From an uncultured Bacilli bacterium (lineage in GTDB: Bacteria; Bacillota_I; Bacilli_A; RF39; UBA660), in assembly GCA_947629205.1 (NCBI GenBank), contig CANRCV010000007.1:1-42859 (forward strand): DNA of 42,859 nt. The letters are read 5' to 3'. Below are positions 28,625 to 42,859 of the stretch, one piece after another (within the stretch, counting starts at the first letter, position 1; every line of letters begins with the position of its first letter). The translations under genes and the position numbers were made by a program. Under the pieces are notes generated by a model, which was given only the letters and a program-made list of their open reading frames with translations, searched no databases and was not told the DNA's origin.

Positions 28625-30424
28625 TTATTCTTTAGGGGCTAGAACAATACGGAAACCATTTAAACTATTTGCATTTCCAACCCAATGTGCAAAAGTAAAT
28701 AAACCTGCAAGTGTATTTTCACTAATTCCACCACCACGAGAAAAGCATGGATATCCACCTCCTGCAAATCTTGCCCAATCTCCATAAAATGATCCTACAT
28801 AATAATCAGAAGCTGATGATACAAATGGCCCCATTTCTCCAGTGGCATCACCAAGTATTCTTCGATTAAAATGAGCTTGATCTGCTCCATAATCGTATAA
28901 ATCATAGTATTTAGGGTCTGTTAATTTTCCATTCAACTCACTCGATGCATAGGATGGTGTAGTACCACCTACTGAACTTGCCATAATACTAGCCATTTGA
29001 TCCCAAGAACCACCTCTTAAATCATAAATTCCGGTTACGTTTTTAGTGGTACTTGCATCCCCACTATTACTATTAGGGAAAACATAATTTGTATTTAAAT
29101 ATCCTGTTCTATAACTTGTATTTGTATTGATTCCAACCTCAGTACATTCATTACTACTTGTGCATCTTCCATAGATACTTTGTGTTAAATAAGCAACAGC
29201 TCCCCACTCGGTATTTTTCATATTATGACTATCTAAATTTCTATTATATTCAAAGCTAATAGTATATGAATTTCCTAATGATTGTTCTCTCCAACTTGCA
29301 ACATTAGGTTTTATTTGAACTTTACTACCACCAGCATCACTTGTTTCAAATTTTCCTACCCATAATCCTTTTGTATCAAAGGCAATAAATGCTGGATGTG
29401 TCATCCATTCACCTTCATTGCATTCTCCACTTTTACCAGACGCACCTTGAACATTATTAGCAAGCATAGGTGTTGCACATTCTTTATGTTTTTCATTACT
29501 TTCATCATTTGTTGTATTTACTAGTCCAAATTCGATTTCGATTGCTGTGGTTGGTCCTTTGTCTGTTAAAGTAGCTACAGCAGATTGATATTCTCCCATA
29601 TCAAATAACTTATAACTATATTTTGGTATCCATACAAAATAACTTTCTATATCATCTTCTTTTATTTCTACATTGTCTTCTGGAGTTTCTACTCCTTCTT
29701 TTAAGATAACAGCATTTGCCCATTCTTTATTTTTATAGTTGTACCACTCTTCTGTTACTTTAGCTTTAGTGACTGTTCCATTTTCCAGATTAATTTTTAC
29801 TGGAACTAACTTTCCTTCTTCATCTAATACTGGATCTGCTCCATTTAAGATTTGTTCTGTATAAATGGCTACTTGATTTTGTAAAGCATCTATTATAATT
29901 TTGCTTTTAAATGTTTTATTTTGAGCATCATTCCCAGCATTTATATCTAACCATAATCTTAAACTATGTTCTACACTGGTATGTGGTTCTAATGTTCCTT
30001 GGCCAATTTTATAAATGTCCCCAGTCTCTCCTTCAACTATAGTTTTTCTATCATTTGTTAATACGACTTTATCGTTTTCATCAATCTTTGTTGCAATGTT
30101 TGTAGCAGACATTGCATTTGCTTCTTGAATGATTTCTAAGTCGATATTATAATCGACTCCTACATTACAAGTATTCGTTAATTTAAAAGTATAGGGTTCT
30201 GTAGTTTCTCCCTTACTATCTTCCATTGGATAGGCATTTTTTAAAGTAATAGCATTTGTTACATCTTCAAGTTCAACATTAATACAATTGGTTTGTACTA
30301 CATTCGTACTTTGTTGTTTGGTATCTTTTCTTATGTATGCATAACTTATACCTATGATAAGTACGAGTATTAAAATACTCGTAATACTAGTTATTAATGT
30401 TTTTTCTATTTTTTTAGTATTCAT
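28625..30424 (-). CDS. Secreted surface protein with C-type-lectin-like C-terminus
   Basis: This is a 599-aa exported protein. A signal or anchor segment (residues ~9-32, ITSITSILILVLIIGISYAY) resembles TasA/SipW-dependent exports. A TasA-like beta domain with two Cys follows (NCINVELEDV ... TFKLTNTCNVGVDYNIDLEI, ~47-185), then a linker, and a domain from ~270 onward with FVWIPKYSYKLF, MKNTEWGAVAYLTQS, VTGIYDLRGGSWDQM, RILGDATGEMGPF and a final NGFRIVLAPKE. This last part looks like the formylglycine-enzyme/C-type-lectin fold used by targets of diversity-generating retroelements. Residues between SFYGDW and NGFR would be the variable surface. The same domain is at 42090. AGGAGAAAAG precedes ATG 30424. 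The ligand is unknown. Confidence 0.75.
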   Translation of the reverse strand: MNTKKIEKTLITSITSILILVLIIGISYAYIRKDTKQQSTNVVQTNCINVELEDVTNAITLKNAYPMEDSKGETTEPYTFKLTNTCNVGVDYNIDLEIIQEANAMSATNIATKIDENDKVVLTNDRKTIVEGETGDIYKIGQGTLEPHTSVEHSLRLWLDINAGNDAQNKTFKSKIIIDALQNQVAIYTEQILNGADPVLDEEGKLVPVKINLENGTVTKAKVTEEWYNYKNKEWANAVILKEGVETPEDNVEIKEDDIESYFVWIPKYSYKLFDMGEYQSAVATLTDKGPTTAIEIEFGLVNTTNDESNEKHKECATPMLANNVQGASGKSGECNEGEWMTHPAFIAFDTKGLWVGKFETSDAGGSKVQIKPNVASWREQSLGNSYTISFEYNRNLDSHNMKNTEWGAVAYLTQSIYGRCTSSNECTEVGINTNTSYRTGYLNTNYVFPNSNSGDASTTKNVTGIYDLRGGSWDQMASIMASSVGGTTPSYASSELNGKLTDPKYYDLYDYGADQAHFNRRILGDATGEMGPFVSSASDYYVGSFYGDWARFAGGGYPCFSRGGGISENTLAGLFTFAHWVGNANSLNGFRIVLAPKE

Positions 30425-40229: not shown

Positions 40230-41078
40230 TTATAATTTTTTTATTACTATTACGGGAATTATTACCTTAACAATTTCTTCAATACTTTTCATTATTTCTT
40301 CAAATACAATGTTACTTGCATAATTATATTTTTTTCTATAAGAATCCCAACGATTTTTAATAATTTCACTATTTTTTAATATGGTAATCGTTTCTTCAAT
40401 ATTTCCATCATATTTTCTATTAGAAAACGTTTTCGTTATTGCCTTACGTAAATCTAGAATATTAACATCTTTCCATCCTTTAGTATATATTAAAAATAAA
40501 TCATAGTAATCTCTAATTCTACTATTAGCTTCAGCTCTTCTTAAAATTGTTTCTAACTTTTCTGCTATTATAGTTTCTAAATTATATGACCATACATTTA
40601 TATGATTATCACCTAATATTGGAAGATATTTATATACTATTGGTTGTGGCGTAATAGGATCACCTGTAGCTATATCAATCTGTAAGTTTTCTCTAATTGT
40701 ATCAACTTTAACATTTAGCACAACTCTAAATCCTCCATATTGATCTTCTTCACGTATATTACCAATTTCTACAAAACTTATTACAGCACCATCACAAATA
40801 TCTATTGCAATAATTGATTGAATCATTTCTTCAACATTTTCTTTAGTAAAATTAGCATCTTTAATTGCAGTATCTATATCTTTTGTTGAACGACTTTCTA
40901 CTCCAAATAAAGTGCTTAAATAAAAACCACCTTTTAAAATGAAATTATCTCGATATTTGCTTACTGCTAATCTTTCTATAAATCTATCATACATATATAA
41001 ACGAAGTAATGTATTAAAATCTAAATTTCTTTTTACTGCTATATTTTTTAATTTATCTTTTATTTGCATACTATTCAT
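40230..41078 (-). CDS. abiEii: Type IV TA toxin AbiEii (nucleotidyltransferase)
   Basis: This 282-aa toxin of the DNA polymerase-beta-like nucleotidyltransferase superfamily carries FILKGGFYLSTLFG (motif I, ~residue 46), SRSTKDIDTAI (motif II, catalytic Asp pair, ~62-72), LQIDIATGDPITP (motif III, ~135) and ETIIAEKLETILRRAEANSR followed by RDYYDL (motif IV, ~170-195). Related AbiEii/MenT toxins bind GTP or modify tRNA and cause reversible growth arrest, stopping phage spread. It follows abiEi with an 8-bp overlap, so the pair is translationally coupled. The antitoxin does not bind the toxin in this type; it represses or opposes it. Confidence 0.92.
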   Translation of the reverse strand: MNSMQIKDKLKNIAVKRNLDFNTLLRLYMYDRFIERLAVSKYRDNFILKGGFYLSTLFGVESRSTKDIDTAIKDANFTKENVEEMIQSIIAIDICDGAVISFVEIGNIREEDQYGGFRVVLNVKVDTIRENLQIDIATGDPITPQPIVYKYLPILGDNHINVWSYNLETIIAEKLETILRRAEANSRIRDYYDLFLIYTKGWKDVNILDLRKAITKTFSNRKYDGNIEETITILKNSEIIKNRWDSYRKKYNYASNIVFEEIMKSIEEIVKVIIPVIVIKKL

Positions 41079-41697
41079 ACATCATCGTCACAAAATCCAT
41101 AACTTCTTCTTTTATGCCAAAAATATCAGCATACTTTGAAAGTTTAATTAGATCATTGTCCTTTCTTTTAAGATATTCTTTAACTGCATATTTTACATGT
41201 TCCAAATCCATTCTTTTTTTTGAACGAATTATATCACAAATACACCTTTCCATATCATAAGCTTTCACTTTATTTCCTTGTGGTGTTTCAATCATAATTA
41301 TTCCTACTTCATAATACTTGTCATCAACATAAAAAACATTATGTTTTTTTAGTTTTGGGTTATTATATTTTTTTGTAACAGTTATATCAAAAGAACTATC
41401 TGGTGTTTTAATTGAAAGATTATGAAAATAAAGTGCAGTCATATGTGAATAAATTATCTTCGGTGTACTAATGCTAAGTACATAATATACATCTTCGATT
41501 TTTGATATATCTATATATACACCTTTAGCAACTTTTTCTATCATATTTTTCTTTTTCATAATTGTTAAATAATTTCTATTTATATTAAAAATTTTAAGGT
41601 CATTTACTGTAATATAACCATTATTTTTTTCCATAAGTTTTTGAATAATTTCAATATTACTTTCATTGATAAATTCTTCTTTTGTCATATGATCCAT
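41071..41697 (-). CDS. abiEi: Type IV TA antitoxin/repressor AbiEi
   Basis: This 208-aa antitoxin has an N-terminal winged helix (YITVNDLKIFNINRNYLTIM then KKKNMIEKVAKGVY, residues ~25-62). The AbiEi core follows, PKIIYSHMTALYFHNLSIKT (~78-97), then the typical KHNVFYVDD...VGIIMIETPQGNKVKAYDME (~118-150). Known AbiEi proteins bind inverted repeats in their own promoter and repress the operon, which fits the perfect 14-bp repeat just upstream. The frame opens at 41721, but ATG 41697 (MDHMTKEEF) has GGTGAT 3 nt before it and agrees with the predicted message start. Confidence 0.92.
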   Translation of the reverse strand: MDHMTKEEFINESNIEIIQKLMEKNNGYITVNDLKIFNINRNYLTIMKKKNMIEKVAKGVYIDISKIEDVYYVLSISTPKIIYSHMTALYFHNLSIKTPDSSFDITVTKKYNNPKLKKHNVFYVDDKYYEVGIIMIETPQGNKVKAYDMERCICDIIRSKKRMDLEHVKYAVKEYLKRKDNDLIKLSKYADIFGIKEEVMDFVTMMYE

Positions 41698-41714
41698 ACT
41701 ATCACCACATTGTT

Positions 41715-41752
41715 CATTCATACGGATATTATATTATTTATCCGTATGAATG
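41715..41752. promoter_or_regulatory. AbiEi operator: perfect 14-bp inverted repeat
   Basis: CATTCATACGGATA (41715-41728) and TATCCGTATGAATG (41739-41752) are exact reverse complements with a 10-bp centre. The repeat overlaps the -10 and reaches the -35 of abiE, so a bound AbiEi dimer would block RNA polymerase. Confidence 0.85.
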
Positions 41753-41756
41753 TCAA
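41728..41756 (-). promoter_or_regulatory. Consensus promoter of abiEi-abiEii
   Basis: On the minus strand TTGACA (41756-41751), exactly 17 bp and TATAAT (41733-41728). This is the best promoter in the window and fits a locus kept off by repression. The start is expected near 41721. Confidence 0.85.
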
Positions 41757-41843
41757 TATTGTTTTTGAGCCAGTTTTTTCTCTTTCTTCAGGTGATTTGT
41801 TTTTTTTTACTTTTAGTAGTTGTTATATTATTCATTTTAAAAT

Positions 41844-41917
41844 AAAAAAGCACCAACCTGTTAAAGGTATAGTGCAAACGAAATCGTGAGTGCTATTTAA
41901 TTTGGTAGCACTTACAT
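41844..41917 (-). ncRNA. Small two-hairpin RNA between the two AbiE operators
   Basis: On the minus strand overlapping TATAAT elements (41932-41922) precede a ~74-nt segment. It has a hairpin AGTGCTA/TAGCACT (41912-41889, 10-nt loop), then a terminator hairpin GCAC-ACCT/AGGT-GTGC (41875-41850) followed by T6. No reading frame fits it. It could be a free small RNA or an insulating terminator that protects abiE from upstream transcription. No -35 is clear. Confidence 0.55.
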
Positions 41918-41934
41918 TTTGATTATATTATAGT

Positions 41935-42009
41935 TTATATATTTTTTCCAGAAAAATAAACCTTTAATCTTCTGCTTCTCCTTTTTTCACTAATTGTCAT
42001 ATAATTCAT
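41935..42009 (-). pseudogene. Remnant of a second abiEi start (24 codons)
   Basis: From ATG 42009 the frame reads MNYMTISEKRRSRRLKVYFS and stops at 41935. Leader and first codons match the intact abiEi copy almost base for base (ATGAACAATG..GATGATAGTATG and ATATGACA), then similarity ends. This is what is left of a duplicated abiE locus. Confidence 0.7.
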
Positions 42010-42026
42010 ACTATCATCTCATTGTT

Positions 42027-42064
42027 CAATCATACGGATAATATGCTATTTATCCGTATGATTG
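42027..42064. promoter_or_regulatory. Second AbiEi-type operator, promoter decayed
   Basis: CAATCATACGGATA (42027-42040) and TATCCGTATGATTG (42051-42064) form another perfect 14-bp inverted repeat with a 10-bp centre. It differs from the first at one position, changed symmetrically in both arms. The -35 is TTTACA, and the -10 at 17 bp reads CATATT, so promoter strength is mostly lost while the operator stays perfect. Confidence 0.8.
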
Positions 42065-42089
42065 TAAATGCCCTTTATTTTTATTTTCA

Positions 42090-42859
42090 TTATGGTGTTA
42101 AGACAATACGGAAAGAAATATGTGTAGCACCTCCACCATCACGACGACCACCGAAATTAAATATTCCACAAATAGTTCCATCGCTCATATTACCACTTCG
42201 TTCAAACCAAGGAGCAGTAGAATAACCAAACGCAGAATCATCATCATGCCAAGAACTTATAGTTCTTGTTTGAGTACCATATTTTTTTCTTACAAAAGGT
42301 CCCATTTCTCCAGTTGCATCACCAAGTATTCTATAACTGTAATTTGTTTGACTTGTACTATAATTATAAACATCATAATACTTTTTATTGCTTTCTAGAT
42401 TATCAAATGGAAAACCACCAGTACTAAATCCACTTTGAACAAACAAATATCCACTATTACTTGCATCCTTCATTACTCCCATGACATATTCCAATGCTCC
42501 ACCACTCATATCATATATGCCTGTATAATTTCCTGTTGTACTAGCAACTGTACTTAAAGAATTTTTATAATTAAAAGTCACATCCCCATCTGCTCCTAAT
42601 TGATTTGGATATTCACGTTCATTACAAGCATTTGGGTGGTCTGTACAAGATTCATTTGTTCCAGTATACCCAGTAGTAGGTTCATTTTTAGCTGCATATC
42701 CAGTCATATAATTACCATTATTGTTGAGTCTTACACTTTGTTCGCTACCATACTTACTATGTTGTAGATAAGCAACTGCACCCCACTCAGTATTCTTCAT
42801 CATATGACTATCTAAGTCTCTTTGATATTTATAACTTGCATCAAAGGCATTTCCAATTG
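42090..42859 (-). CDS. Surface protein with C-type-lectin-like domain (5' end outside window)
   Basis: The frame is open to the window edge, so only the C-terminal ~255 residues are seen. It matches the protein at 28625: GNAFDASYKYQRDLDSHMMK, NTEWGAVAYLQHSKYG, YTGIYDMSGGALEYVM, RILGDATGEMGPF and final FRIVLTP. An inserted Cys loop (ESCTDHPNACNER) is specific to this copy. In the last 50 residues the differing positions are mostly NNT codons: CAT GAT GAT GAT in SWHDDD, and GGT GGT CGT CGT GAT GGT in GGRRDG. Adenine-targeted mutagenesis of AAT/AGT codons would produce such a pattern. Function: probably ligand binding at the cell surface (inference). Confidence 0.7.
   Translation of the reverse strand, partial: IGNAFDASYKYQRDLDSHMMKNTEWGAVAYLQHSKYGSEQSVRLNNNGNYMTGYAAKNEPTTGYTGTNESCTDHPNACNEREYPNQLGADGDVTFNYKNSLSTVASTTGNYTGIYDMSGGALEYVMGVMKDASNSGYLFVQSGFSTGGFPFDNLESNKKYYDVYNYSTSQTNYSYRILGDATGEMGPFVRKKYGTQTRTISSWHDDDSAFGYSTAPWFERSGNMSDGTICGIFNFGGRRDGGGATHISFRIVLTP

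Follow-up and report, generated by a model that had tools for sequence, protein, structure and literature searches.

Lectin-like paralogues with putative variable regions of the retroelement type in an uncultured Bacilli assembly in which no such element was found

The genome of an uncultured Bacilli bacterium, here labelled G000, encodes a dispersed family of 24 lectin-like paralogues, the 3′ ends of which are probably variable regions (VRs) of the type written by diversity-generating retroelements (DGRs), now either retired or remote from a cassette that was lost or left unassembled. The copies are regarded as retired or remote because no template, reverse transcriptase (RT), Avd or acceptor hairpin was found in the assembly. 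The VRs form a compositional island within their genes, and related genomes carry DGRs with targets in the same family, where the sequence marks of adenine-error copying into targets are evident. A DGR would also have written the island in G000, and we infer that the cassette has been lost rather than missed by the assembly. The lectin-like (FGE-like) protein is probably surface-exposed.

The variable region and its protein family

The window, i.e. the whole 42 859 nt stretch of DNA analysed, is contig C7 in its entirety, and belongs to a genome of about 1.05 Mb in 45 contigs that is approximately 90% complete. An open frame on the minus strand (42090..42857) runs to the contig end, where the gene is cut, and encodes the C-terminal 255 aa of a lectin/FGE-like protein; the fragment gave no Pfam family match. 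Alignment with DGR targets of sister genomes places its VR at 42096..42230 (minus strand), from the phenylalanine at 42230, or one to two codons earlier as mapped from sister template/target pairs, to FRIVLT. The VR has as its fixed 3′ end the FRIVL anchor (TTCCGTATTGTCTTA; 42099..42113, minus strand), which is the 3′ limit of template/target homology in the sister cassettes. A second paralogue (28625..30424, minus strand) is complete at 599 aa and has, close to its N-terminus, a hydrophobic stretch that by eye resembles a membrane anchor; paralogue alignment puts its VR (FAGGGYPCF...FRIVLA) at 28637..28768 on the minus strand, with the anchor at 28641-28654.

An initial annotation had suggested a possible variable region in the window-end gene on the basis of NNT codons that could arise from AAT or AGT by changes at adenines only, with a stretch shared by both paralogues as a candidate fixed 3′ anchor. 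The anchor was borne out, as homology between sister templates and targets stops at FRIV. The shared stretch, TTTCCGTATTGT, is present in both genes (42103-42114 and 28644-28655, both minus strand) but had been quoted out of frame; in frame, TTC CGT ATT GTC encodes FRIV. It has six copies in the genome, every one within members of the lectin-like family. The quoted codons are real: HDDD is encoded by CAT GAT GAT GAT (42248 down to 42237, minus strand) and GGRRDG by GGT GGT CGT CGT GAT GGT (42152 down to 42135, minus strand). GGRRDG lies inside the VR, but HDDD is just 5′ of it, judging from the VR start in sister template/target pairs. With probabilities conditioned on the residues and on the codon usage of the 34 other ORFs of the window, NNT at HDDD is expected (P = 0.75) because an AT-rich genome uses those codons anyway, and plain NNT codon bias was rejected as evidence there; GGRRDG has P = 0.0075 but had been chosen by eye. 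Over the VR of the window-end gene alone, 30 of 46 codons are NNT against 0.54 expected (p = 0.08, not significant); a strong signal emerges at the level of the family.

The 24 family genes were obtained by merging 33 matched stretches by hand. The shared C-terminal domain follows N-terminal parts of two or more kinds; within it RILGDATGE and FRIVLxP are almost invariant, and the columns between them are partly hypervariable and partly fixed. The candidate lectin fold is based on weak sequence matches, namely an FGE-sulfatase match in 9 of the 24 members (best E = 1.3e-4) and PDB profile matches to PvdO (E = 0.11) and 5vf4 (TaqVP; E = 0.12), since the AlphaFold models were too poor to be of use (mean pLDDT 43.5 and 39.0).

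Two features of the surrounding sequence were also recorded. In five of the 24 family genes a small ORF comes next, with a 4 nt overlap at the family stop codon (for example, L016:1301-1486, L025:1298-1489 and L030:1947-2126); four of the five encode 60-64 aa and one 27 aa, and the three that were scanned are HTH_3. By a loose sequence rule, such an ORF follows 6 of 19 members in genome G014, 5 of 20 in G011, 4 of 6 in G021, and none of 20 in G015 or 14 in G020. At the window end, an AbiEi/AbiEii toxin-antitoxin pair (the AbiEi match is below cut-off) adjoins the lectin gene, and the stretches concerned, upstream region included, are 40230-41721 and 41682-42069. The AbiE upstream region contains a perfect inverted repeat (41715-41752), and a 76 nt second copy of that region (41994-42069), 87% identical, separates the pair from the lectin gene. 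A perfect 15 bp inverted repeat 26 nt downstream of the window-end gene was rejected as a DGR hairpin because it is part of this second copy and has an 8 nt loop.

DGR cassettes in sister genomes

Among 22 genomes of the genus, 13 have an RVT_1 match and 7 an Avd match. A close RT (E at most 1e-60) occurs together with Avd in G005, G014, G015, G018, G019, G020 and G021, the Avd of G005 being a weak match of 28% identity. The combination was found in 7 of the 12 genomes with at least nine family matches and in none of the other 10 (Fisher p = 0.005), where the cut of nine was set after the counts had been seen and matches are not gene counts. The family-rich genomes in which neither a close RT nor Avd was found are G000, G003, G007, G010 and G011.

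The G019 cassette has a repeat that reads SNPWFNRGGGYNNTSNAGVFNFNNNSGTVNNNIGFRVVLA and, downstream of it, an RT whose PIGNYTSQ and YMDD motifs are of the kind typical for DGR RTs; between the two is Avd (bAvd, 1.7e-18; PHROG ‘Avd protein of DGR’; NCBIfam DivGenRetAVD, below cut-off). Between template and Avd the same cassette holds a 119 aa ORF resembling MutS domain I (PF01624, 8.6e-10; L045:589-948), and translated sequence akin to it occurs near RTs in G018 (L053) and G008 (L061). A phage search for this RT lineage gave Bordetella phages among its matches; a viral origin of the lineage was rejected, with the 80 viral loci listed at 43% identity or less, all 158 phage records below 60%, and the nearest relatives from the same genus at 58-65%. 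The genus has further DGR-like RTs (PLGNQSSQ and PIGNMTSQ motifs; L050, L052, L057 and L059) with imperfect repeats nearby, and a PADLOC scan gave generic RT and DRT matches, none of them decisive.

Template-to-target differences fall on adenines in 15 of 15 cases in G019, 11 of 11 in G014 and 17 of 20 in G015; the cassette comparisons leave out the G018 template and the cassette-adjacent targets of G005, G018 and G020. The G014 target (G014:C3:22402-23100) is a family profile match (E = 3.1e-84), the last 136 nt of which match the template, and the gene adjoining the G021 template is likewise a family match (E = 5.3e-86); for the G015 and G019 targets the family resemblance comes from their translated tails. 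The variable region proposed for the window was therefore right in kind, its family being that of the sister DGR targets.

Across the family, 103 members were examined: 24 from G000 and, among the matches listed, all 19 from G014, 20 of 23 from G015, all 14 from G020, 6 of 8 from G021, and 20 from G011, not its full set; family matches of the remaining genomes were left out, RT neighbourhoods excepted. Some dispersed members are still close to a template. In G015, three differ from it at 12, 12 and 21 of 32 adenines but only at 2, 3 and 3 of 107 other bases; in G020, two differ at 17 and 15 of 29 adenines and at 2 and 3 of 110 other bases. The remaining members examined grade up to 57 of 107 (G015) and 55 of 108 (G020) non-adenine differences. 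For G014, the cassette-adjacent gene alone is clean, and the other 18 members examined have 34-54 non-adenine differences. The closest RT of G021 is interrupted by stops and its template can still be read, which looks like an intermediate stage; this genome also has an intact RT of another subtype.

A hairpin with a 4 nt loop, beginning 20-22 nt from the first base of the FR anchor, follows the VR in all four cassette-adjacent targets examined (G014, G015, G019 and G021, with loops GCGA, GTAA, CTTG and GTAA). No hairpin was seen at the G014, G015 and G020 templates; the G019 template has one at +30, which is AT-rich. No hairpin was found at the 20-22 nt place in remote members of G014 (0/18), G015 (0/20), G021 (0/5) or G011 (0/20, with one at +41), and 1 of 14 members in G020 has a hairpin, at +16. 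The 103 regions searched start at the anchor, and the chance expectation is 0.02 hairpins per 75 nt region (mononucleotide shuffling of G000 regions). The fresh remote members of G015 (L110, L112 and L121) and G020 (L130 and L134) are without the post-VR hairpin, so they were either written without it or received their VRs by recombination. In phage BPP-1 the post-VR hairpin is needed for efficient homing, with residual hairpin-independent activity (PMC3240598).

Search for a DGR in the G000 assembly

Searches of the approximately 90% complete G000 assembly with RVT_1 and with a sister DGR RT gave no match to a DGR-type reverse transcriptase, and none was obtained for Avd. The template repeat, which the initial annotation had proposed to look for, was not found at any anchor-pattern place outside the family VRs; the patterns TTYCGTRTNGYNYT and TTYCGYNTNGYNYT occur at 25 and 27 places, of which 23 are family anchors and the other four were read, and such a search is blind to a template that has a different anchor or lies in an assembly gap. 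A hairpin at the usual place is present in none of the 24 members, with one hairpin at +47.

Where the initial annotation looked for differences confined to template adenines, the VRs of the 24 G000 members vary at every base. When four sister templates serve as reference, mean difference fractions are 0.57-0.61 at template adenines and 0.42-0.46 at non-adenines, and among the VRs listed the eight nearest have at least 30 non-adenine differences to each template. Third positions agree in at most 0.75 of cases between nearest-neighbour VRs in G000, and in 0.95 between the best G015 and G020 pairs. A test of third-base agreement reached p <= 0.01 in 7 of 276 pairs in G000, 38 of 190 in G015 and 15 of 91 in G020; the pooled excess in G000 is slight (0.42 vs 0.40 by shuffling; 0.43 vs 0.38 upstream). 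One pair, L009/L012 (C2:11662-12387 and C38:320-1057), differs at positions 1 or 2 in 17 codons, of which 13 agree in the third base where 7.0 would be expected (p = 0.001, for one pair among 276). Seven of the 13 are C, and the two genes have the highest tail GC3 of the G000 family (0.43 and 0.42). This pair may be read as the least faded relic of a common adenine mutagenesis of AAC/AAT codons. VR synonymous divergence faster than that of the scaffold was rejected as proof of template turnover, the values for four-fold codons being 0.44 vs 0.39 in G000 and 0.43 vs 0.43 in G015; the excess is stronger in G011 and G020.

These results bear on the possibility that G000 has an active DGR that was not assembled, with the RT/template cassette in an assembly gap, the 24 genes all remote, and one unseen gene as the live acceptor. 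G014 provides a precedent, as it has a live-looking cassette and yet 18 of its 19 members examined carry 34-54 non-adenine differences, like the G000 VRs against sister templates. Contig C7 stops inside the window-end gene, and the genome is 90% complete. We nevertheless regard an active, unassembled element as unlikely, given that no RVT_1 match, close RT or Avd was detected, that none of the four anchor-pattern places outside the family is a template, and that 0 of 24 members have the acceptor hairpin at its usual place. Moreover, G003, G007, G010 and G011, which are family-rich and 88-92% complete, are likewise without close RT and Avd. Contigs often start or stop inside or near family genes (the C7 end and several contig starts of G020 and G021), so the family may cause breaks in short-read assemblies, with cassettes perhaps under-represented.

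Composition of the variable region

GC content of the last 51-60 codons exceeds that of the upstream domain in all 24 genes (mean 0.40 vs 0.32, with 0.27 for the window; 0.41 vs 0.33 in the window-end gene), and does so equally, in 24 of 24, when the VR body alone is taken. As a control, the last 48 codons are GC-richer than the body in 16 of 30 other ORFs of the window. Codon choice points the same way: T/C-ending synonymous codons make up 0.675 of 292 in 25 hypervariable tail columns (22 in the VR as mapped and 3 just 5′ of it) vs 0.419 of 265 in 25 equally variable upstream columns, and the fraction is higher in the tail in 22 of 24 genes (column permutation p = 1e-4). NNY-type codons are not exclusive, as K/E/Q/M/W account for 12% of hypervariable tail codons. 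The fixed tail columns are biased too (0.70 vs 0.40), so the whole segment, not the variable residues alone, has a different codon usage. When the gene is divided into bins, T/C endings account for 0.20-0.29 in the two RILGDATGE bins and 0.53-0.76 in the five bins of VR and anchor; bins further upstream lie at 0.47-0.63, however, so the VR edge is not marked by a clean step in codon use. Arginine is encoded by CGT in 67% of cases in the tail and by AGA in 82% upstream. The codons of the FR anchor are TTC in 22 and CGT in all 24 members, compared with 10% TTC and 41% CGT in the 34 other window ORFs; binomial values for these biases are overstated because related genes are not independent.

The island also bears on whether these are ordinary paralogues under diversifying selection on a ligand-binding surface, recombining with one another and involving no retroelement. 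Relative to changes at position 3, those at codon positions 1+2 are more frequent in the VR than upstream in all six genomes compared (ratio of 0.90 vs 0.59 in G000, 26 pairs), as diversifying selection would predict. Recombination has a candidate example in L092/L093 of G014, where the VRs are 97% identical but the upstream parts 90% overall and 82% over the nearest 52 codons; this pattern is as in gene conversion and suggests that VRs can be shared between copies. Diversifying selection leaves unexplained, however, the T/C-ending synonymous bias, the CGT and TTC usage and the GC island of the tail, as well as the sister templates with adenine differences in the same region, and we consider this account quite improbable. 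Least credible of all is that the NNT codons merely mirror an AT-rich genome: HDDD and the window-end gene taken singly would fit such an artefact, but the VR is GC-richer rather than AT-richer, and at the family level 24 of 24 tails against 16 of 30 control tails contradict it.

The pair L165/L166 of G011, a genome in which no RT was found, is 96% identical upstream and about 78% identical in the VR, and could be a case of VR replacement or rapid change in the absence of a visible DGR. In a scaffold tree of the 103 members, G000 sequences are interspersed among the G014 and G011 ones (12 label changes for G000), which suggests that much of the family is older than the separation of these species; for G015, G020 and G021 the members mostly group by genome of origin, and 33 of 100 inner branches are open. 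The named relatives are uncultured Bacilli/Tenericutes genomes, the isolate names of which point to rabbit, mouse and chicken samples, among others.

Discussion

Our data are consistent with a model in which the G000 tails are DGR-type VRs that have outlasted, or lie remote from, their element. The sequence marks in the relatives are those of a DGR that copies a GC-rich template with errors at adenines, the copy replacing the 3′ end of the target gene up to the fixed FR-x-V-L anchor. In G000, such segments would persist as a compositional island with hypervariable codons, and the 24 copies are probably retired or remote targets that are now drifting and perhaps recombining. This proposal, drawn from comparison of sequences, does not extend to present-day writing by a DGR in G000.

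More tentatively, and with less than even confidence, the DGR of the genus could be viewed as a generator that feeds a chromosome-wide archive, such that the lectin repertoire is kept after the cassette dies and G000 represents the end state. The acceptor hairpin would then be confined to the cassette-adjacent gene, and finished variants would pass, through recombination or hairpin-independent homing, to dozens of paralogues that mostly have no hairpin.

DGRs are usually detected through an RT and a nearby repeat, an approach by which targets that outlive their element are missed. The genus offers what appears to be a series: a cassette with an adenine-only target; one template with graded dispersed targets; a template that can still be read next to a broken RT; and targets on their own. 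Such a series allows us to ask what becomes of hypervariable proteins after the engine is lost, and whether hairpin-less remote copies are written directly or via recombination. As DGRs and dispersed targets are already known, the targets-only repertoire is a variant; our literature search, which did not cover most subscription papers or bioRxiv preprints, found no paper on DGR target families in these Bacilli.

Adenine bias and C-lectin folds are near-universal in DGRs, in a survey where detection demanded a repeat at most 1 kb from the RT (PMC8144416). The G000 family resembles the FGE-type C-lectin proteins of known DGRs (Mtd of BPP-1, TvpA and TaqVP; PMC6328139, PMC3240598), of which TaqVP (5VF4) is of the FGE subtype of the C-lectin fold (PMC6328139), in having the VR at the 3′ end of the ORF with a fixed anchor, and it shares NNY-rich hypervariable codons with FGE-type variable proteins (PMC6328139, PMC3240598). 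It is unlike the Mtd, TvpA and TaqVP systems in that template, RT, Avd and hairpin were not found in G000, that 24 paralogues occupy a small genome, and that the fold is a candidate one. The sister cassettes, with template, Avd, RT, adenine-restricted differences and a post-VR hairpin with a 4 nt loop, are like known DGRs, although their loops GCGA, GTAA and CTTG do not fit the GRNA consensus of phage elements (PMC3240598).

A further parallel is found in cyanobacteria. Two DGRs lie elsewhere in the genome of Nostoc PCC 7120 (PMC7517822), unlike G000, where the whole assembly yielded no RT or Avd, as was the case in 5 of the 12 family-rich genomes. The gene all3226 of that strain retains remnant TR-VR homology with no nearby RT or RT pseudogene, and it has been suggested that diversification parts may be removed after a variant has been selected (PMC7517822). 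Cyanobacteria also have dispersed paralogues of CLec variable proteins (PMC7517822), and the lectin-like paralogues of G000 are dispersed in the same way.
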